Assembly: GCA_014190575.1 (NCBI GenBank)
Contig: BJGQ01000003.1
Location: 1-64,000 of the forward strand
Direction: 5' to 3'
Source of the DNA: Bacteroidota bacterium
Lineage (GTDB): Bacteria; Bacteroidota; Bacteroidia; Chitinophagales; UBA10324
Length of the DNA stretch: 64,000 nucleotides
Below are positions 2,132 to 13,753 of the stretch, piece by piece; the first letter of the stretch is position 1, and each line of letters opens with the position of its first letter. The notes beneath the pieces are model-generated. The model saw nothing but the letters and a program-made list of their open reading frames with translations, ran no database searches and was not told the DNA's origin. A program made the translations under genes and the position numbers.

Positions 2132-2163
2132 TTGCACGCTATTTTAAATTTAATCTACATTAG
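2132..2163 (+). promoter_or_regulatory. Candidate Bacteroidota promoter for the TonB/T9SS/PorV operon
   Basis: TTG at 2132-2134, a 21-nt spacer, then TACATTAG at 2156-2163. This fits the phylum's -33 TTG / -7 TAnnTTTG pattern with one mismatch. It would leave a 5' leader of roughly 80 nt before the ATG at 2248. Seen by eye; transcription is inferred. Confidence 0.45.
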
Positions 2164-2247
2164 TTCCAGAATTCAAAATCGCGATTAAATTTGTCGGCCT
2201 CCAAAATGGAAAAGCATAACAATAATTTAAACCAAAACCCGTAGGGC

Positions 2248-5200
2248 ATGAAAAAAATTTTCTCCCTCTTCTCTCTGATTCTTATTTCTTCGGCAACCTT
2301 GTTTGCGCAAAATGGCGAATTGCAGGGGCGAGTTATTGATAGTGGATCAAAAACCAAGGAAGGTGTTACAGCCGCAACTGTTGTTCTGTTCCGAAATGGA
2401 ACTCAGGTAACAGGAACCGTCGCCGATTTTGATGGTAATTATATCATAAAGCCAATTGTTCCTGGTTCTTATGATTTAAAGATCACAGCTGTAGGTTTTA
2501 TTGACATGACGATTAATAAAATTGAAGTACATGCTGATCAGATAACTTTTAAGGATATTATTATGCAACCTAGCGGGGCATTTAATTTAAAAGAAATTAT
2601 TGTAACAGATAAGCCACCACTTGTTGCAAAAGATAATACCCAACAAGGTGGAAATATGTCAAAAGAAGAAATTCAACAATCAGCAATAACAAGAAGTAAC
2701 CCAAATAATATAGCCGCAAAAACAGCCGGCGTTTATCAGAAAGATGACAATGCAGGATTAAATATTGCAGGTGGTCGTGATTATTCTCAGAAGTATTATG
2801 TTGATGGTATTCCAATGCGAGGAGCAATTAATCTTCCTTCCTCATCCATTGAACAATTAACAATTATAACTGGTGGTGTACCGGCAAGATACGGCGATGC
2901 AACTGGTGGAATAATAAATATAACAACTCGTGGACCTTCAAATAAATATCATGGAGGCATTGAAGCATCTAATTCTTATTTTTTAGATCCTTATGGATAT
3001 AAATTATTAAGCTTGAATTTAAGCGGGCCAATATATACAAAGTATAAAAAATCAAGAAATCAACCTGGCGATTCATCCGAAGCTAAAATTGGATTTTTCC
3101 TTTCATTAGAGTATGAAGGAAACCTTGACAGATCTCCATCAGCGGTTGGATACTGGACTGCGACTGATAGTGTTTTAGCTCATCTTCAGGAAAATCCACT
3201 ACGACCATCACCGTTTGGAACCGGATTTATTCCGAATGCCTTTTTCATTACTAAGGATAGCTTGAAGCACATTAAAGCTGTTCAAAACGGAGATGATAAT
3301 AATATCAGAGCTTCTTTAAAAATAGATTATAAAATTAATAAGTACACTAACCTAACGGTTGGAGGAAATGCAAATTACTTTCAATACAATAATGGTGATT
3401 TCGCAAATCAATTATTTTCCCCTCAATCCAGTAGTAGCAATTCTGAATTAACCTATCGGACATTTGTAAGATTTACTCAGCGATTTGGTTCAGGAAAAAA
3501 TGCAGATGATAAAACAGCTTCTGTATTTCAAAACGCTTATTATAGCATTCAAGTTGATTACAGTAAATTTTTTCAGAAATTTGAAGACAAAGACAAAAAA
3601 TTTGATGCTTTTTCGTATGGATATGTTGGAAAATATAAAACTTATCGTAAACCAAGATATCAGCAGGATTCATGCAAGGTTTGGGAAAATGGTGCATACA
3701 AAGTTTATTCAGGTTTAGAATTTAAGAGTTATCAGGATACCTTGGTAACATTTGAACCAGGAACATCAAATCCATTACTTGCTAATTATACAAAGCAGTA
3801 TTATCAATTGGCAGGAAGTACTCCTGTTGATGGTGTTTATGGATTGGTTGATGCAAGTCAAGACAATCAACAAACATATTATTCATCACTTACAGATATT
3901 TTAATTGGTGGTGGTATTTTAAATGGCCAATCAGCATTTGATATTAATGCGATGTGGTCACCAACCGGTAATGTATATGGAAATTTTGGTTATCGAAATA
4001 ACGATCAATATCGTCTTGCATTTTTTAGCTCCGTTGATATTGTTCGACCTTCAAAAGTAAAAGGTGAAGAAAACCGACACGCAATTGAATTTGGAATTGA
4101 ATATGAACAGCGCACGGATAGAGCATATACAGTAGCTCCTATTGGTTTATGGGGTTTAGCAAGACAATTAACCAATGGCCATATTTTGGAATTTGACCTT
4201 TCAAATCCTATTTTGGTTTACGATGCATTTGGCGTGTATCAGGATACAATAAATTATAATCGGAAAGTTGGAACAGGGCAATCAGTTTTTGATAGGAATC
4301 TTCGTAAGAAATTGAATCTGGATCCAAACGGAACTGACTTCATTGATATCGATGCCGTTGATCCTTCCATACTATCATTAGATATGTTTAGCCCTGATGA
4401 GTTATTAAATAACGGAGGTAATTTAGTAAGTTATTATGGCTATGATTATTTAGGTAATGTCTTAAATAAACAACCAAGTTTTGATGATTACTTCAACAAA
4501 AATGTTGATGATGATTTTTATCCACGAAAAATCGGTGCTTATCGCCCAACTTATGTTGCGGGTTATATTCAAGATAAATTCAACTTTAAAGATTTGATTT
4601 TTAATGTTGGTTTGCGTGTCGATTATTATGATGCCAATCAAAAAGTATTGAAAGATCCATATTTATTGTATCCGGCTAAAACAAAAAGTGAAGTAACAGA
4701 ATTAAATGGAAAGCCGGTTGAATATCCATCAAACATTGGAAATGATTATGTTTTGTATGTTGATAATCCAACAGATCCAAAAACAATTGTTGGATATAGA
4801 AATGGAAATGTTTGGTACAATGCTGCCGGAACCGAAATATCAAATCCATCTGTAATAGCGTTGGCAAGTTCAACAGGTAAAATAGCTCCGTATTTAAAAA
4901 GCTCCGATAGCTTAATTGTTACCCCGGATGCTTTCAAAGATTACAATCCTCAATATACATTAATGCCTCGTATTGCTTTTTCATTTCCAATCAGTGATGA
5001 GGCTATATTTTTTGCACATTACGATGTGCTTTCACAACGCCCATCATCAAATCGTATGAATCCATTCAGTTATTATTTTCTTCAGGAAAATGCTGTGAAC
5101 GGCGCAATCCAAAATCCGGATTTGAAGCCTGAAAAAACAATTGATTACCAGGTTGGTTTCAAACAGGCCTTGAGCAAAAACACTGCTCTTTCAATTTCAG

Positions 5201-6021
5201 GTATTTACAGGGAATTAAAAAATCAGGTTCAGATTAAAAAATACTTTTACTCCTTCCCAACTGATTATACCACTTATGGCAATGAAGATTTTGGAACAGT
5301 AAAATCAATGCAAGTTGCTTATGAAATGCGCCGTACAAATAATATCAGGATGGAAGTGAATTATACTTTGCAATTTGCTGACGGTACAGGCTCTAGCACA
5401 TCTTCAGCAAGTGGCCTATTAAGCGCAACAAATCCGAATTTTAAAACTATTGTGCCTTTCAGTTATGATCAGCGACATACAATTACCACAACTTTTGACT
5501 ATAGATATGGAGAAGGAGATGATTACAACGGACCAGTAGTTGGAAAGAACAACAAGCCAATTCTTGCAAATACCGGATTGGATGTAATATTTACTGCAGG
5601 ATCAGGAACCCCATACTCCCGTCAGGTAAATCCGACACCTAATGCATTTTCTGGAGTAGCTACTCAATCAAGTTTAAGTGGAACTTTAAATGGAGCGCGA
5701 TTACCTTGGAGTTTTAAGTTTGATTTGAAATTGGATAAGGATTTTAAATTCGGTAAGGATGATGGTAAACATAAATCAGTTTATGTGAATGGTTACCTGC
5801 TCGTTCAAAATGTGTTGAATACAAAAAATATTCTAAGTGTTTATTCTTATACAGGTAATCCTGACGATGATGGTTATCTATCATCTGCCGTTGGACAACA
5901 ATTATTAGAATCGCAAATTAATAGCCAAGCAATTATTGATCAATACGCAATAAGAATTAACAGTCCCGGAAATTATTCATTGCCTCGGCGAATTCGTGTT
6001 GGTGCATCATTTAATTTTTAA
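2248..6021 (+). CDS. TonB-dependent outer-membrane receptor with carboxypeptidase-like regulatory domain
   Basis: A 1,257-residue outer-membrane protein. It begins with a Sec signal peptide ending ATLFAQ (residues 1-21). Next come a carboxypeptidase-regulatory-like beta-sandwich (about 22-110, with DFDGNYIIKPIVPGSYDL) and a plug domain (about 120-230, with YYVDGIPM and GGVPARYGDATGGIINI). A long beta-barrel ends in Phe (GASFNF), as usual for BAM substrates. Such receptors use TonB energy to import ligands or, in Bacteroidota, take part in surface complexes. The ligand cannot be told from sequence. It is not paired with a SusD gene; instead it is followed after 24 nt by a T9SS cargo gene and then a PorV/PorQ gene. 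Confidence 0.9.
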   Translation: MKKIFSLFSLILISSATLFAQNGELQGRVIDSGSKTKEGVTAATVVLFRNGTQVTGTVADFDGNYIIKPIVPGSYDLKITAVGFIDMTINKIEVHADQITFKDIIMQPSGAFNLKEIIVTDKPPLVAKDNTQQGGNMSKEEIQQSAITRSNPNNIAAKTAGVYQKDDNAGLNIAGGRDYSQKYYVDGIPMRGAINLPSSSIEQLTIITGGVPARYGDATGGIINITTRGPSNKYHGGIEASNSYFLDPYGYKLLSLNLSGPIYTKYKKSRNQPGDSSEAKIGFFLSLEYEGNLDRSPSAVGYWTATDSVLAHLQENPLRPSPFGTGFIPNAFFITKDSLKHIKAVQNGDDNNIRASLKIDYKINKYTNLTVGGNANYFQYNNGDFANQLFSPQSSSSNSELTYRTFVRFTQRFGSGKNADDKTASVFQNAYYSIQVDYSKFFQKFEDKDKKFDAFSYGYVGKYKTYRKPRYQQDSCKVWENGAYKVYSGLEFKSYQDTLVTFEPGTSNPLLANYTKQYYQLAGSTPVDGVYGLVDASQDNQQTYYSSLTDILIGGGILNGQSAFDINAMWSPTGNVYGNFGYRNNDQYRLAFFSSVDIVRPSKVKGEENRHAIEFGIEYEQRTDRAYTVAPIGLWGLARQLTNGHILEFDLSNPILVYDAFGVYQDTINYNRKVGTGQSVFDRNLRKKLNLDPNGTDFIDIDAVDPSILSLDMFSPDELLNNGGNLVSYYGYDYLGNVLNKQPSFDDYFNKNVDDDFYPRKIGAYRPTYVAGYIQDKFNFKDLIFNVGLRVDYYDANQKVLKDPYLLYPAKTKSEVTELNGKPVEYPSNIGNDYVLYVDNPTDPKTIVGYRNGNVWYNAAGTEISNPSVIALASSTGKIAPYLKSSDSLIVTPDAFKDYNPQYTLMPRIAFSFPISDEAIFFAHYDVLSQRPSSNRMNPFSYYFLQENAVNGAIQNPDLKPEKTIDYQVGFKQALSKNTALSISGIYRELKNQVQIKKYFYSFPTDYTTYGNEDFGTVKSMQVAYEMRRTNNIRMEVNYTLQFADGTGSSTSSASGLLSATNPNFKTIVPFSYDQRHTITTTFDYRYGEGDDYNGPVVGKNNKPILANTGLDVIFTAGSGTPYSRQVNPTPNAFSGVATQSSLSGTLNGARLPWSFKFDLKLDKDFKFGKDDGKHKSVYVNGYLLVQNVLNTKNILSVYSYTGNPDDDGYLSSAVGQQLLESQINSQAIIDQYAIRINSPGNYSLPRRIRVGASFNF

Positions 6022-6045
6022 AAGAGAGAAAAATAATTCATAATT

Positions 6046-9000
6046 ATGAAAAAAATTACTACTTCGCTCGCCTTTGCAACAGCTTTTTTAATTGCTGCAA
6101 CTTCCGCCAGGGCATTTGAAAATATTGGAATGCCACATAAGACCGAGCAAGGGCACAAAATAGAAGCTGGAGATTGTAAACCAGCCACCTCTCAAATTGA
6201 CTTAAACATTAACAATGTTCGCGCAAGGTTAATGAATGGTGGCGACATGTGGTGGGATTTAAATACTGCTGCAAAATATGAAATCCCCAAAATTCCAATT
6301 GAAAGTACTGAGCCGAGAGTAAGTTCATTATTTGCCGGATCAGTTTGGATTGGAGGTATTGACCAGGGAGGACAATTAAAAGTTGCTGCCGGAACTTATC
6401 GCCAGAATGGTAATGATTTTTATCCCGGGCCTCTTGATGCAAATGGAGAAGTTGATCAAAATACCTGTACTGATTTTGATAAGCAATGGCAGGTTTTAGG
6501 TTCTGAAATTGACGAGTTAAAAACGAAGTTTGAGGGGCATTTTGCCGGGGATGGTTATCAGATCGATCCAAGTGAGGTACCACAAAACATTTTGGATTGG
6601 CCAGCTAAAAACAATCCTTTTAATACTTTGCCCGGGAATCGTGATTTAGCTCCATTTTTTGATTATGATAACAGTGGAGATTTTGATCCAACATATGGTG
6701 ACTTTCCGGTAATTAATTCAAAACTTCAAAATTATGCCGACCAAATGATTTGGTGGGTTTATAATGATAAAGGAAACATTCATACAGAAACAGGAGGTCA
6801 GGCAATTGGTATGGAAATACAAACTCTTGCTTTCGCATATAAAACGACTGATGAAGTTGATAATATGACTTTCTACAAATATGAATTAATAAATAAAGCA
6901 ACATCGGAACTTGATTCTGTTTATATGGGACAATGGGTTGACCCTGATCTTGGTTGCTACCTTGATGACTATATTGGTTGTGATACTTCAAAAGGAGGTG
7001 GAGGACTTAATCCGAAAAGTCGTGGATTAGGTATTATTTATAATGCCGATGCACTTGACCAGCCTTGCCCGCTTGGCTACGGCGATCAACCACCATTATT
7101 AGGGGTTGATTATTTTAAAGGACCATTGAATGAAGATAGCGTGGAGTTAGGTATGAGCAAGTTTTTATATTACAATAATGATTTCACTTCAATGGGAAAT
7201 CCTGAAAATGCTTCACATTATTACGGATATCTTTCTGGTTCTTGGAAAGATGGAACTCCATTTACCGAGGGTGGAAATGCACACGGAGGATCAGTTCCAA
7301 CAAGTTTTGTTTTTCCTAGTTCTCCGAATGATGCATCTGGTTGGTCTGAGTGTTCACAGAATAATACTCCTGCTGACCGCCGTTTTATTGAATCAACTGG
7401 TCCTTTTAAATTAATACCCGGTGCATCAAATGAAATAATAATTGGTGTAATTTGGGTTCGACCACCAGTTGGAACATATCCATGCCCAAGTTTTAGTCTC
7501 TTGCAAACTGCTGATGATAAAGCACAAGCATTATTTGATTCAAATTTTAAAATATTAGATGGCCCAAAAGCTCCTGATGCAAAAATTGTAGAATTGGATA
7601 AGACCTTAATATTTAATCTCCTGAATACTTTTAATGAGGTAGAAAAATATCATGATACTGATCCGATTGTTGCTGCACTTGGTGATCCTGATTCAACCTA
7701 CTTTTTCCAAGGATATCAGGTTTTTCAATTAGTAAATACAAAAATCAGTGCACAAGAATTAGGCGATCCTTCAAAGGCAAGATTAGTTGCACAATGTGAC
7801 CTGAAAGATGCGGTTAGCAAAGTTGTGAACTTAACTTACGATCCAACTTTAGAAACCAATGTTCCAACCTTGAAAGTTGATGGAGCGAATATTGGGCTAC
7901 AGCATTCGTTTGAATTTTTAAACGATGCTTTTGCTACTGGAGATAAAAGATTGGTGAATAACAAGAGATATTATTACATGGTTGTTTCTTATGCATACAA
8001 TGGGGCAGCTCAGCAAAAGACCAAGTACCTGCAAGGAAGAAAAAATACAAAAATATATTCCGCAATTCCACATATTCCTGCTCCTGAATTTAATGGTTTA
8101 GTTATTAATTCAGAGTACGGTGATGGGCCTCAGATTATTCGTGAAGAAGGAAGGGGAAATAGCGGATTTCAATTGGAAATAACTGAAAGTTCTGATTCTT
8201 TAATTAGAATATTTGGTTTTGATCCTAGAGTGGAATATAAAGGAGGAAAAGGACCGGTTGGGATTAAAGTTATTGATCCGAAAAATGTTCCGGCCGACGA
8301 TTTTGAGTTAACACTTATTGACTCAATTTCTTCTAATATGGTTATGAAAGATGCAGGTACTTATTGGAAATTACATGATCTTACCACTAATGAAATAATA
8401 TACAGCGATACCACAATTGATCAGAGCAATGAACAAATGTTGCCTGATTGGGGCCTTTCGGTTTATGTAAAACAAGTTCGCAACGCAGGTAGCAATAATG
8501 CAAGTGATAATAATGGCTTTATTGAATCTTCCATAACCTTTAAGGAACCTCAAACAACCTGGTTGTCTGGAGTACCTGATGCTGAAGGTGAAGATGATTT
8601 AAATTGGATTCGTTCCGGAACTTCAAATACTACAGGGTTAAAACATCCGGATTATGTGGGTGAAGATGACAACCAGTATTTTGAAGATATTATTGGCAGA
8701 ACCTGGGCACCTTATCACTTGTGTTCGCAGGACAATGATTGGGGGCCAATTTGGTCGAATAATTCAACTAGAATTCAAAACAGATTGGATAGTTTACCAA
8801 GTGTAAAAATTATTTTCACTTCTGATAAAACTAAGTGGACTCATTGCATTGTAATAGAAGGTCAACCTGAAAAAAATCTGGCAGAAGGCGGAGCTCCCAA
8901 AATGAGTATTCGTAAACATGGTTCATTAAATCTGGACGGTACTTATCAAACTATGAATGCTGCAGACCCAATGTCGATAGGGTATTCATGGTTTCCTGGA

Positions 9001-9801
9001 TATGCAATTGATTTGGAAACAGGAACCCGTTTGAATATTATGTTTTCTGAAGATTCAAGAAACATTGGTGAAAACGGAGGTGATATGATATGGAATCCTA
9101 CTTCTACTACCAAAACTGCAAATGGCGAAGTTTCATTAGGAGGTCGTCATTTTATTTATGTTGCAAGAACAAGGTATGATGAAGATGTATATTTCAGTCA
9201 GAACCTAGAAACAAATGCTCAAGGTTTGGTTGCTTCTGTTGCAACCAATACTTATAGAAAAATTGCCTGGGTTAGCATGCCGTTATTAACTCCTGGGTTC
9301 AAGTTAAAATCATTTGCTGATGGATTAATTCCAACTGAAACTACTATTTTCATTTGGGTGAATAAGGCTTATACTCAATTTCATACAGGTAATGCCGAAA
9401 CCAATGGAGGATATCCACGATATACATTCAGCACAAAAAATTTGGCCGCTGTAAAGGGTGATGCAAGTACTGCAAAAAATGCGCTCGACACTATCAACAT
9501 TGTTCCTAATCCATACTACGCGTACAGTAGTTACGAAAGCAGCCAAACTGATAATCGTGTAAAGATTACTAACCTGCCACAGAAATGCACCATTTCAATT
9601 TATAGCGTTGATGGAATTCTGATTAAGAAATTTGAACGCGATGACGCAACAATAACTTCTCTTGATTGGGATTTAAAAAACAGTGTTGGCGTGCCGGTTT
9701 CAAGCGGAATTTATCTCATTCATATTAATGCCGGAGAATTGGGTGAAAAAACACTGAAATGGTTTGGCATCATGCGTCCTGTGGATCTAGATAGTTTCTA
9801 A
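6046..9801 (+). CDS. Large secreted protein with T9SS type A C-terminal domain
   Basis: A 1,251-residue protein of unrecognised function. It has a Sec signal peptide (residues 1-23, ending TSARAF). A central conserved-looking part carries acidic calcium-site-like repeats (YDNSGDFDPTYGDF near 205; GQWVDPDLGCYLDDYIGCD near 300). The last roughly 90 residues form a T9SS sorting domain: IVPNPYYAY, VKITNLP, CTISIYSVDG, then GVPVSSGIYLIHI. The protein should cross the outer membrane through T9SS and be retained or released at the surface. The chain ends in RPVDLDSF rather than the common short basic end. It lies between a TonB receptor (24 nt upstream) and a PorV/PorQ gene (34 nt downstream), probably in one transcript. 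Confidence 0.8.
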   Translation: MKKITTSLAFATAFLIAATSARAFENIGMPHKTEQGHKIEAGDCKPATSQIDLNINNVRARLMNGGDMWWDLNTAAKYEIPKIPIESTEPRVSSLFAGSVWIGGIDQGGQLKVAAGTYRQNGNDFYPGPLDANGEVDQNTCTDFDKQWQVLGSEIDELKTKFEGHFAGDGYQIDPSEVPQNILDWPAKNNPFNTLPGNRDLAPFFDYDNSGDFDPTYGDFPVINSKLQNYADQMIWWVYNDKGNIHTETGGQAIGMEIQTLAFAYKTTDEVDNMTFYKYELINKATSELDSVYMGQWVDPDLGCYLDDYIGCDTSKGGGGLNPKSRGLGIIYNADALDQPCPLGYGDQPPLLGVDYFKGPLNEDSVELGMSKFLYYNNDFTSMGNPENASHYYGYLSGSWKDGTPFTEGGNAHGGSVPTSFVFPSSPNDASGWSECSQNNTPADRRFIESTGPFKLIPGASNEIIIGVIWVRPPVGTYPCPSFSLLQTADDKAQALFDSNFKILDGPKAPDAKIVELDKTLIFNLLNTFNEVEKYHDTDPIVAALGDPDSTYFFQGYQVFQLVNTKISAQELGDPSKARLVAQCDLKDAVSKVVNLTYDPTLETNVPTLKVDGANIGLQHSFEFLNDAFATGDKRLVNNKRYYYMVVSYAYNGAAQQKTKYLQGRKNTKIYSAIPHIPAPEFNGLVINSEYGDGPQIIREEGRGNSGFQLEITESSDSLIRIFGFDPRVEYKGGKGPVGIKVIDPKNVPADDFELTLIDSISSNMVMKDAGTYWKLHDLTTNEIIYSDTTIDQSNEQMLPDWGLSVYVKQVRNAGSNNASDNNGFIESSITFKEPQTTWLSGVPDAEGEDDLNWIRSGTSNTTGLKHPDYVGEDDNQYFEDIIGRTWAPYHLCSQDNDWGPIWSNNSTRIQNRLDSLPSVKIIFTSDKTKWTHCIVIEGQPEKNLAEGGAPKMSIRKHGSLNLDGTYQTMNAADPMSIGYSWFPGYAIDLETGTRLNIMFSEDSRNIGENGGDMIWNPTSTTKTANGEVSLGGRHFIYVARTRYDEDVYFSQNLETNAQGLVASVATNTYRKIAWVSMPLLTPGFKLKSFADGLIPTETTIFIWVNKAYTQFHTGNAETNGGYPRYTFSTKNLAAVKGDASTAKNALDTINIVPNPYYAYSSYESSQTDNRVKITNLPQKCTISIYSVDGILIKKFERDDATITSLDWDLKNSVGVPVSSGIYLIHINAGELGEKTLKWFGIMRPVDLDSF

Positions 9802-9835
9802 ATTTTAACATTAATTAAAACCCCAAATTCGGGCA

Positions 9836-10906
9836 ATGAAAAAAATATTAATCGTAATTGTAGCCATCGCACTAAGCTCGCCTTCAGTGTTTGCCGGTAA
9901 TAAAGATCGTGCTGGTCAGGCAGGTGCTTATGAATTATTAATTAACCCATGGGCACGCAGCAGTGGTTGGCATGGATTGAATACAAGTAGTGTTCGCGGG
10001 CTCGAGTCATTGAATTTGAATGTAGCCGGATTAGCATTTACTCAAAAAACAGAAGTGCTTTTTGCACACTCAATTTACTTGCAGGGAACCGGAGTAAATA
10101 TTAATGCTTTTGGTTTTAGCCAGGCATTGGGAAAATCAGGTGGAGTTTTGGGTGTGGACTTAATGGCCATGAGTTTCGGGGATATTATGGTTACCACCGT
10201 AAATTTACCTGAAGGGGGACTTGGAACTTATCACCCTCAATTTATTAATCTCGGTATTGCTTATTCTAAAAGTTTTTCTCATAGCATTTATGGCGGTTTA
10301 GTTGTTCGGGCTATTACTGAAGGTGTAGCCGATGCGAAAGCTTCAGGTCTTTCTTTTGACGCGGGAATTCAATACATGACAGGGGATAAGAAATATGACG
10401 ACCGTGTTAAATTTGGAATTTCGCTTAAGAATATTGGAACAGCTTTGAAATTTCAAGGTGATGCTTTGTCGTTTAAAGGAAATGCTGCTGAAGGTGATTA
10501 TCAAATGACTGTTTCGCAAAGGTCGCAGCAATTTGAACTTCCATCATTGTTGAATATCGGAGGCTCTTATGATTTCCATTTTGGAAAAGCTAACGGTGAT
10601 AACAAAACTACTAACCGCGTAACGCTTGCTGTTAATTTTACATCGCATTCTTTTCAGCGCGACAACATTGGCGCAGGGTTAGAGTACTCGCTTAAAGACG
10701 AGTTTATGGCGCGTGTTGGTTATAACTATGAAACCGGATTGCTAAAAGAAGCATCAAGAACAAACGCATACACGGGCTTGGCTGGTGGTTTTACTTTTGA
10801 ATTACCAACTAAGAAAAATGGTCCTACCGTTGCGTTGGATTATTCTTACCGCGCTTCAAACCCATGGGGCGGCACCCACACTTTGGGGGCTCGAATTAAT
10901 TTGTAA
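9836..10906 (+). CDS. PorV/PorQ family outer-membrane beta-barrel protein
   Basis: A 356-residue protein with a signal peptide ending SVFAG. Its N-terminal mature segment, AGQAGAYELLINPWARSSG, is typical of PorV/PorQ (UPF0164) barrels. The rest is alternating beta-strand sequence ending GARINL. In described T9SS systems PorV accepts folded CTD cargo at the translocon and carries it to the attachment complex. Placement directly after a CTD cargo gene suggests a dedicated partner for that protein. It is probably a paralogue rather than the housekeeping PorV, which usually neighbours porU; no porU is seen here. A strong terminator follows. Confidence 0.8.
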   Translation: MKKILIVIVAIALSSPSVFAGNKDRAGQAGAYELLINPWARSSGWHGLNTSSVRGLESLNLNVAGLAFTQKTEVLFAHSIYLQGTGVNINAFGFSQALGKSGGVLGVDLMAMSFGDIMVTTVNLPEGGLGTYHPQFINLGIAYSKSFSHSIYGGLVVRAITEGVADAKASGLSFDAGIQYMTGDKKYDDRVKFGISLKNIGTALKFQGDALSFKGNAAEGDYQMTVSQRSQQFELPSLLNIGGSYDFHFGKANGDNKTTNRVTLAVNFTSHSFQRDNIGAGLEYSLKDEFMARVGYNYETGLLKEASRTNAYTGLAGGFTFELPTKKNGPTVALDYSYRASNPWGGTHTLGARINL

Positions 10907-10931: not shown

Positions 10932-10969
10932 AAACGCTTCAGATAAAACTGAAGCGTTTTCTTTTTTTT
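10932..10969 (+). terminator. Rho-independent terminator of the TonB/T9SS/PorV operon
   Basis: Perfect 11-bp stem AAACGCTTCAG / CTGAAGCGTTT (10932-10942 and 10949-10959) with a 6-nt ATAAAA loop, followed by a T-rich tail to 10969. It ends the three-gene unit 26 nt after the PorV-like gene and before greA. Confidence 0.92.
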
Positions 10970-12421: not shown

Positions 12422-12805
12422 CTAAAAATATTCGGCTTCAACAGGCTTACCGTTTTTTGTTGCCGGAATCCAGCGGGGCATGCTGTACATTAACCGTAAT
12501 GCTTCCTTGGCTAAGTTTGGTGCGTAGGGCACTCCGTTAATCAGTTGCACATTGGTAACTGCGCCGCTTGTGTCAACAATAAATTTCAGGTAAACTCCAC
12601 CTTGCAATCCCTTCGATTTTTCGGGCTCGGGATACCGAACACTATCGGCGAAGAATTGGCGCATGGCAGTAGGGCCGCCGGGATACTGAGGCGCGGTATC
12701 ATATACCGGTTCAGGCATGTTCCAGGGTAATGGGTTTTCGCCTTCCTGAGCAAAGCATAGGTTGCTAAATGCTATAATCGTTATTATAAAACCCAGTGAC
12801 TTCAT
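12422..12805 (-). CDS. Periplasmic TonB C-terminal-domain protein
   Basis: A 127-residue protein with a signal peptide ending LCFAQ (residues about 1-19) and then a TonB C-terminal-like domain. Visible motifs are YPGGPTAMRQFFADSVRYP, VYLKFIVDTSGAV, and MPRWIPATKNGKPVEAEY at the end. It has no transmembrane anchor plus proline-rich spacer, so it is not a full energy transducer. Isolated secreted TonB_C domains of this kind are common in Bacteroidota. It is followed by the DUF4377 gene; upstream lies a 114-bp very A+T-rich gap before the Hint gene. Its role is unknown. Confidence 0.8.
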   Translation of the reverse strand: MKSLGFIITIIAFSNLCFAQEGENPLPWNMPEPVYDTAPQYPGGPTAMRQFFADSVRYPEPEKSKGLQGGVYLKFIVDTSGAVTNVQLINGVPYAPNLAKEALRLMYSMPRWIPATKNGKPVEAEYF

Positions 12806-12919: not shown

Positions 12920-13753
12920 TCACCACCCCATTTGCAATAATTTATAAGTACAGTAACTGTTGAACAGTGTGCTGCCAATTAAAATATCGTTAGCCCGGTA
13001 ATAACCCGTATCGCCATCGGGTAAAATATCATAAGTAAAGGAATCATTTAGTTCAGTAAAATATTTTTGAGTTACTGTGCTCTTGTCAAGAACAGTTCCT
13101 GTTTCGTACTGCGTAAGCGAAAAATAATCAACAGCAGCAGGATGGTCGGGAGTAACCTGCAGTTTGCGTCCATCTGCAAGTTCAATGTTAAGCATACGGT
13201 GATTGGGTTCAACAGCAATTTTATTAACTGCTATAATCGGCACAATTATTTTTTCTCCCGTGGCATTCACCGAGTAAACTGAATCGCCCTTCATCAATAA
13301 AGAAATAAGCACCTTGCCTTTTGGTGTTGAAATAAAAGTGGAAGCCGGCAGGCACCTGCATGAATTGGGTGTGCCTCTGAATTGTTTCTTATCGATGGTT
13401 TTATAAAGCAGAGTACCATCGTCTAACGAGCGAACAATCACCGGATCATCAAGCGTGGCCATTGGAATACATACATGTTCAATTGGCCAGGTGTAAACAT
13501 CTTTGGCACGGTAGTTCTTCTTGTTATAGCCCGAATAAATAACCACCACTTTGTTTTTTTGTGCCCAGCAACTGTTCAGGTAGCAACGAAAATCTGTGCC
13601 GGTAACAGGTGCATATTCATAATAGTCGCACTCCTGATTCAGCAAAGCCCCATCCTGAGCCGGAGGATTAACATTGTTATGGTTTTGTGCCTGAATATTT
13701 ATTGAATCAGCAACCAGTATGAGATATAGAAGAAAGGCAGTAACTGTTTTCAT
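12920..13753 (-). CDS. Secreted Hint (Hedgehog/intein) domain protein
   Basis: A 277-residue protein with a signal peptide ending IQAQ (residues about 1-22) and an N-terminal region of about 110 residues rich in Cys and Tyr that I do not recognise. The C-terminal half is Hint-like: it starts CLPASTFISTPKG (about residue 132), has the block-B motif TPDHPA with its Thr and His, and ends RANDILIGSTLFN. The His-Asn plus nucleophile junction of splicing inteins is absent and no C-extein follows. The likely activity, if any, is N-terminal cleavage or transfer rather than splicing. Both domain identity and export are inferred from sequence patterns. Confidence 0.75.
   Translation of the reverse strand: MKTVTAFLLYLILVADSINIQAQNHNNVNPPAQDGALLNQECDYYEYAPVTGTDFRCYLNSCWAQKNKVVVIYSGYNKKNYRAKDVYTWPIEHVCIPMATLDDPVIVRSLDDGTLLYKTIDKKQFRGTPNSCRCLPASTFISTPKGKVLISLLMKGDSVYSVNATGEKIIVPIIAVNKIAVEPNHRMLNIELADGRKLQVTPDHPAAVDYFSLTQYETGTVLDKSTVTQKYFTELNDSFTYDILPDGDTGYYRANDILIGSTLFNSYCTYKLLQMGW

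Follow-up and report, generated by a model that had tools for sequence, protein, structure and literature searches.

Sequence comparison indicates that a three-gene unit encoding a TonB-dependent receptor (TBDT), a T9SS cargo and a PorV-family barrel is ancient and conserved over several classes of Bacteroidota. The trio is probably an uncharacterised surface machine, and a search of papers outside subscription for PorV-like proteins combined with TonB receptors found no description of it. We lean towards a reading in which the three proteins form one outer-membrane surface complex, where the cargo would be held through its CTD by a dedicated PorV-like carrier and would work with the TonB receptor. 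The carrier-plus-CTD principle is already known for PorV, PorQ-PorZ and type B pairs, and the trio would extend it by joining a TonB receptor.

Gene layout and flanking signals

ORF analysis of the window, the whole 64,000-nt stretch of DNA analysed, places the three genes head to tail on the + strand between positions 2248 and 10906, separated by 24 nt (TBDT to cargo) and 34 nt (cargo to barrel), in agreement with the arrangement described in an earlier note on this DNA (Table 1). The terminator that it described is also confirmed, as a perfect 11-pair stem followed by TCTTTTTTTT as its T tail. The promoter that it had set at 2132-2163 is probably misplaced: the TAnnTTTG box there carries one mismatch, and the exact box TAAATTTG at 2186-2193 is better conserved. 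At this second site, TA[AT]ATTTG is invariant in the seven upstream regions aligned, from the window and six relatives, and a TTnG element lies about 22 nt 5' of the box, which is the likely promoter of the trio in place of the earlier candidate. The exact TTTG-spacer-TAnnTTTG pattern was no more frequent across the window than expected by chance and did not occur in the trio region, and a sigma-70 scan returned matches at chance level only.

Table 1. Positions in the window of the trio genes, the cargo domains and the flanking signals.
Feature	Position	Strand	Basis
Likely promoter, TAnnTTTG box TAAATTTG	2160..2193 (box 2186-2193)	+	Conserved in aligned upstream regions
TonB-dependent receptor (TBDT), 1257 aa	2248..6021	+	Pfam Plug and CarboxypepD_reg matches
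T9SS cargo, 1251 aa, without lipobox	6046..9801	+	CTD fold, signal peptide
Cargo N-module, residues ~44-505, super-beta-sandwich	6175..7560	+	Predicted fold
FN3-like domain, residues ~505-685	7558..8100	+	Predicted fold, Z about 9
Type A CTD fold, residues ~1141-1244	9466..9777	+	Profile and structure comparison
Private C-terminal tail RPVDLDSF, past canonical CTD end	9775..9798	+	Cargo alignment
PorV-family barrel, 356 aa, own clade	9836..10906	+	NCBIfam PorV_fam, tree
Intrinsic terminator, 11-pair stem, 6-nt loop, T tail	10932..10969	+

Distribution across Bacteroidota

Each trio protein was searched against 61 genomes of the order. An ortholog of the barrel was found in 48 of them (E <= 1e-59) and is unambiguous because the other barrel matches in these genomes were weaker than 1e-16. 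All 48 also carry the cargo and 47 the receptor, the remaining genome being cut at a contig start; the genes adjoin wherever the contig permits, and the full trio arrangement is present in 47 of the 61 relatives' genomes. Eight genomes, belonging to two families, lack all three genes (six of them scored 100% complete), and five fragmentary genomes hold part of the trio only. The T9SS translocon SprA is present in all six complete genomes that lack the trio, so the trio is not simply part of the T9SS.

Among named public genomes, the arrangement TBDT-cargo-barrel was found in 71 of 80 loci, with three loci cut by contig ends and six consisting of solitary cargo copies; the gaps within the trio are mostly 10 to 60 nt across loci. 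One cultivable species with the trio is Membranihabitans marinus (L088). Within 2.5 kb downstream, 63 loci have greA and 60 have a HIT gene, and these stable surroundings point to vertical inheritance at one chromosomal site. Class-wide, the barrel was detected at 1e-50 or better in 301 of 396 genomes and 151 of 199 genera, nearly always once. A phylum-wide search with the barrel only returned relatives from other classes at 1e-36 to 1e-48, closer to the trio barrel than the next-best PorV-family match in the window's own genome (1.5e-6). These loci were picked by the barrel alone, and the full trio was present in the same order in all 17 readable regions, while in an eighteenth, truncated by the end of its contig, the CTD and barrel are present. 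Matches in the other classes range from 1e-109 to 1e-270 for the receptor, 1e-46 to 1e-130 for the cargo N-module and 1e-19 to 1e-39 for the CTD, and SprA was found in 20 of 20 trio genomes tested outside the order. The earlier note would have given up its reading if the gene arrangement had proved rare outside this strain; instead, it recurs in the order, in the class and in other classes, and chance is ruled out for the arrangement because it is conserved.

Several loci depart from the single trio or have particular neighbours. Tandem duplications at three loci (L124, L135 and L136) have produced at least two trios, or extra copies of cargo and barrel, per locus, and the L124 genome contains 15 PorV-family hits. 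At other-class loci (L126, L127, L130, L137 and L139, and L122, L123 and L128), the trio is often followed by a gene for a GWxTD-domain protein and then by genes for lipid A acyltransferase and members of the heptosyltransferase family, or has sugar-nucleotide genes nearby.

Composition of the three proteins

The receptor comprises a signal peptide, a CarboxypepD_reg extension at residues 25-103 (41.8 bits; Pfam cut-off 32.3), a TonB-box-like stretch, a plug at residues 136-222 (29.1 bits; cut-off 23.9) and a large barrel. A Plug match above the cut-off followed by a large barrel identifies it as a TonB-dependent receptor; its dependence on TonB is putative, from the TonB-box-like stretch. Its next-best paralog in the same genome matches at 3e-18, in the plug region only.

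The N-module of the cargo was predicted with a pLDDT of 93 and matches the N-terminal super-sandwich of glucoamylase-, cellobiose-phosphorylase- and GH116-type enzymes (GH94/GH15/GH116), the best structural match giving a Z of 18.6 over 259 residues at 3.8 A. The predicted structure is without the catalytic (alpha/alpha)6 barrel of these sugar enzymes. That the sandwich fold is shared with sugar enzymes is no proof of sugar binding, and a sugar ligand is a guess from the fold. The remaining C-terminal part (pLDDT 92) begins with the FN3-like domain and ends with the CTD; its Foldseek TM-scores are very low over the full length because it is multi-domain, and only single-domain matches were used. 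Pfam searches with 18 cargoes matched no family, SusD included. In relatives, we also observed stand-alone paralogs of about 550 aa that contain only the cargo N-module (for example, G002:C90:17554-18855 and G020:C194).

That the cargo carries a T9SS CTD, as the earlier note had stated, holds by predicted fold but not by sequence score. The predicted C-terminal beta-sandwich resembles three known CTDs, that of PorZ (Z 11.7, with 26% identical residues in an alignment of 91), that of PorU (Z 9.6) and that of NucA (TM 0.67 by target), whereas the sequence stays below the cut-offs of TIGR04183 (19.6 against 23 bits) and Pfam PF18962 (13.4 against 27). This structural model assigns the cargo CTD to the type A folds, with the PorZ CTD as its nearest match. 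The cargo as a whole is not assigned to PorZ: its match to the PorZ equivalog NF052228 reaches 37.1 bits and covers the CTD only, against a cut-off of 260 over the whole protein. Beyond the CTD, the cargoes share a tail with the consensus R-P-x-D-L-D-[ST]-[FY]. In 103 full cargoes, W1239 is conserved in 97, R1244 in 99 and D1247 in 102, and the final residue is F, Y or L in all 103; other-class cargoes also have a C-terminal extension, whose last residue is in most cases aromatic or otherwise hydrophobic.

The barrel is PorV/PorQ-like, as the earlier note had it, and belongs to neither of these two families in the strict sense. It scores 119.6 bits against NCBIfam PorV_fam (NF033709, cut-off 90) and falls short of both the PorV equivalog (NF033710, 48.4 bits, cut-off 250) and the PorQ equivalog (NF033711, 61.4 bits, cut-off 220). 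A grouping with the housekeeping PorV would have told against a private barrel. An 83-sequence tree gathers the barrels of the trio, whatever their class, into one group of their own (support 88/97), with PorV (100/99), PorQ (100/100) and PorV2 (100/100) outside it and PorV2 as its neighbour (98/90). Among solved structures searched by sequence, the barrel matches PorV only, and the cargo and receptor match none. Elsewhere in the window's own genome, the neighbour of PorQ is not PorZ but a protein that combines a type B CTD with a CotH-kinase-like domain (contig C26, L145, 4306-7966), and that of a second full PorV is a protein of 823 aa that matches CarboxypepD_reg and, weakly, the plug (contig C9, L143, 7288-11007).

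A candidate carrier-bound complex and its alternatives

PorV loops bind CTDs in the translocon (PMC10994853), and PorZ and PorU are reported to keep their CTDs bound to PorQ and PorV (PMC10202324). For type B proteins, the neighbouring PorP/SprF barrel serves as anchor and also determines where they finally reside (PMC9143113, PMC12618676). By analogy with these systems, we propose a model in which the cargo would be exported by Sec and then via the T9SS translocon, and its uncleaved CTD with the private tail would be taken up by the neighbouring PorV-family barrel, which would stay bound as carrier and permanent anchor, as PorQ does for PorZ. Passage through the SprA translocon is suggested by co-presence with SprA and by the precedents. 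The surface-displayed cargo would then present its sugar-enzyme-like beta-sandwich and FN3-type domains and act jointly with the TBDT of the same operon, a step that co-inheritance suggests. The likeliest use of the complex may be to capture a common glycan-like ligand and bring it in with energy from TonB, although both ligand and transport direction are only weakly suggested. The division of labour would resemble that of SusCD, with a T9SS protein on a PorV-like clamp replacing the SusD lipoprotein.

The trio shares features with several known systems and is identical to none of them. In PorQ-PorZ, a large surface protein reportedly keeps its type A CTD uncleaved and held by a PorV-family barrel (PMC10202324), and the CTD of the trio cargo is closest to that of PorZ; unlike this pair, the trio has its own barrel clade, a super-beta-sandwich in the N-terminal half of the cargo, a private tail and a fixed partnership with a TonB receptor. 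In the units of SprF/PorP and type B CTD proteins (SprB, PG1035), a carrier barrel beside its own CTD protein likewise serves as surface anchor (PMC9143113, PMC12618676), but there the CTD is of type B, the barrel belongs to the PorP family and a TonB receptor is not reported, whereas the trio has a type A fold and a PorV-family barrel. PorV-PorU and PorV2-PorU2, which also adjoin in the window's own genome, likewise combine a PorV-family barrel with a CTD protein; their partners, however, are sortases, and no TonB receptor was seen beside PorU or PorU2. In BamG-BamH of the Bacteroidota BAM complex, a FadL-type barrel binds a surface protein with its outer loops (PMC12578637), though the partner is a lipoprotein and the families are different. 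SusC/SusD (RagA/RagB) resembles the trio in encoding a TonB receptor and a surface-exposed partner in one operon. SusC/SusD systems occur in many specialised copies, whereas the trio is inherited in single copy, like a core gene. The trio partner also carries a T9SS CTD, is joined by an additional PorV-like barrel and is not a SusD-type lipoprotein, since its signal peptides are without a lipobox (a lipobox-like pattern appears in 1 of 103 cargoes) and SusD matches are absent.

The earlier note had proposed that the barrel is a dedicated acceptor for its neighbour cargo. The separate barrel clade, the widespread gene arrangement and the PorV-PorU and PorV2-PorU2 precedents argue for this pairing, but distance correlations do not single out the CTD and the barrel. 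Corrected for GreA and HIT, these correlations lie between 0.50 and 0.70 for all trio pairs, with TBDT and barrel highest (0.70); the value for CTD and barrel (0.51) is no higher than that for N-module and barrel (0.50), and we rejected it as proof of contact. The three proteins evolve together more than they do with greA or HIT, both controls being short. Solitary cargoes were likewise rejected as a sign of pairing in trans: five of the six genomes concerned have a trio barrel elsewhere, near the background frequency.

The most serious alternative, which we consider rather unlikely, is an envelope-biogenesis module, in which the cell's own surface glycan or LPS, not an external nutrient, would be bound, delivered or exported with energy from the TonB receptor. 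Near-universal single-copy inheritance, stable housekeeping surroundings of greA and HIT, and the lack of any carbohydrate-utilisation gene noted beside the trio favour it, as does the resemblance of the CTD to that of PorZ, a named anionic-LPS delivery protein; indeed, single copy, broad vertical inheritance and the greA-HIT site agree with a housekeeping function in the envelope at least as well as they do with nutrient uptake. Several other-class trios have genes for a lipid A acyltransferase, a member of the heptosyltransferase family and an M23 peptidase downstream, or a UDP-sugar dehydrogenase nearby, but such LPS-gene surroundings were not seen in the Bacteroidia loci, and two whole sampled families live without the trio. 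It is considerably less probable that three independent surface genes merely share an operon, with the cargo using the housekeeping PorV and losing its CTD to PorU, as ordinary type A substrates do. The genome does hold two PorV copies and PorU, and the cargo CTD is of type A; yet the strict co-inheritance and fixed order over several classes, the private CTD tail and the separation of the barrel clade from PorV all argue against it. Least probable of all is an Oar/PopC-like receptor that would help a surface or secreted protein to be released or exported: Oar, which has the same architecture of CarboxypepD_reg, plug and barrel, indicates that a TBDT of this layout can be required for protein secretion (PMC6434023), but the layout dominates Bacteroidetes TBDTs generally and is hence unspecific (PMC6434023), and the T9SS would already export the cargo.

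Returning to the carrier-bound surface complex, we offer as a more tentative proposal that the trio adds a third kind to the known T9SS surface complexes, namely a transporter powered through TonB with a T9SS-delivered ligand-binding subunit, whose retained CTD would be clamped on its own PorV-family carrier, ancestral to several Bacteroidota classes and kept by most sampled Bacteroidia. If so, the two energy chains of the cell's outer membrane would come together in a single surface complex through the operon with a TonB receptor, in a trio that occurs in about three quarters of the sampled genomes of the class as well as in other classes, and the SusCD division of labour would extend to non-lipoproteins. 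The model also offers a testable reason for the presence of several PorV-family barrels per genome, namely one barrel per retained CTD partner.

Two further genes lie past the trio on the - strand of the window. The first, 1.5 kb beyond it (12422-12805), encodes a small exported protein that matches the TonB C-terminal domain with 49.7 bits, and the second (12920-13753) encodes a secreted protein with a weak match to a Hint (hedgehog/intein-type) domain.
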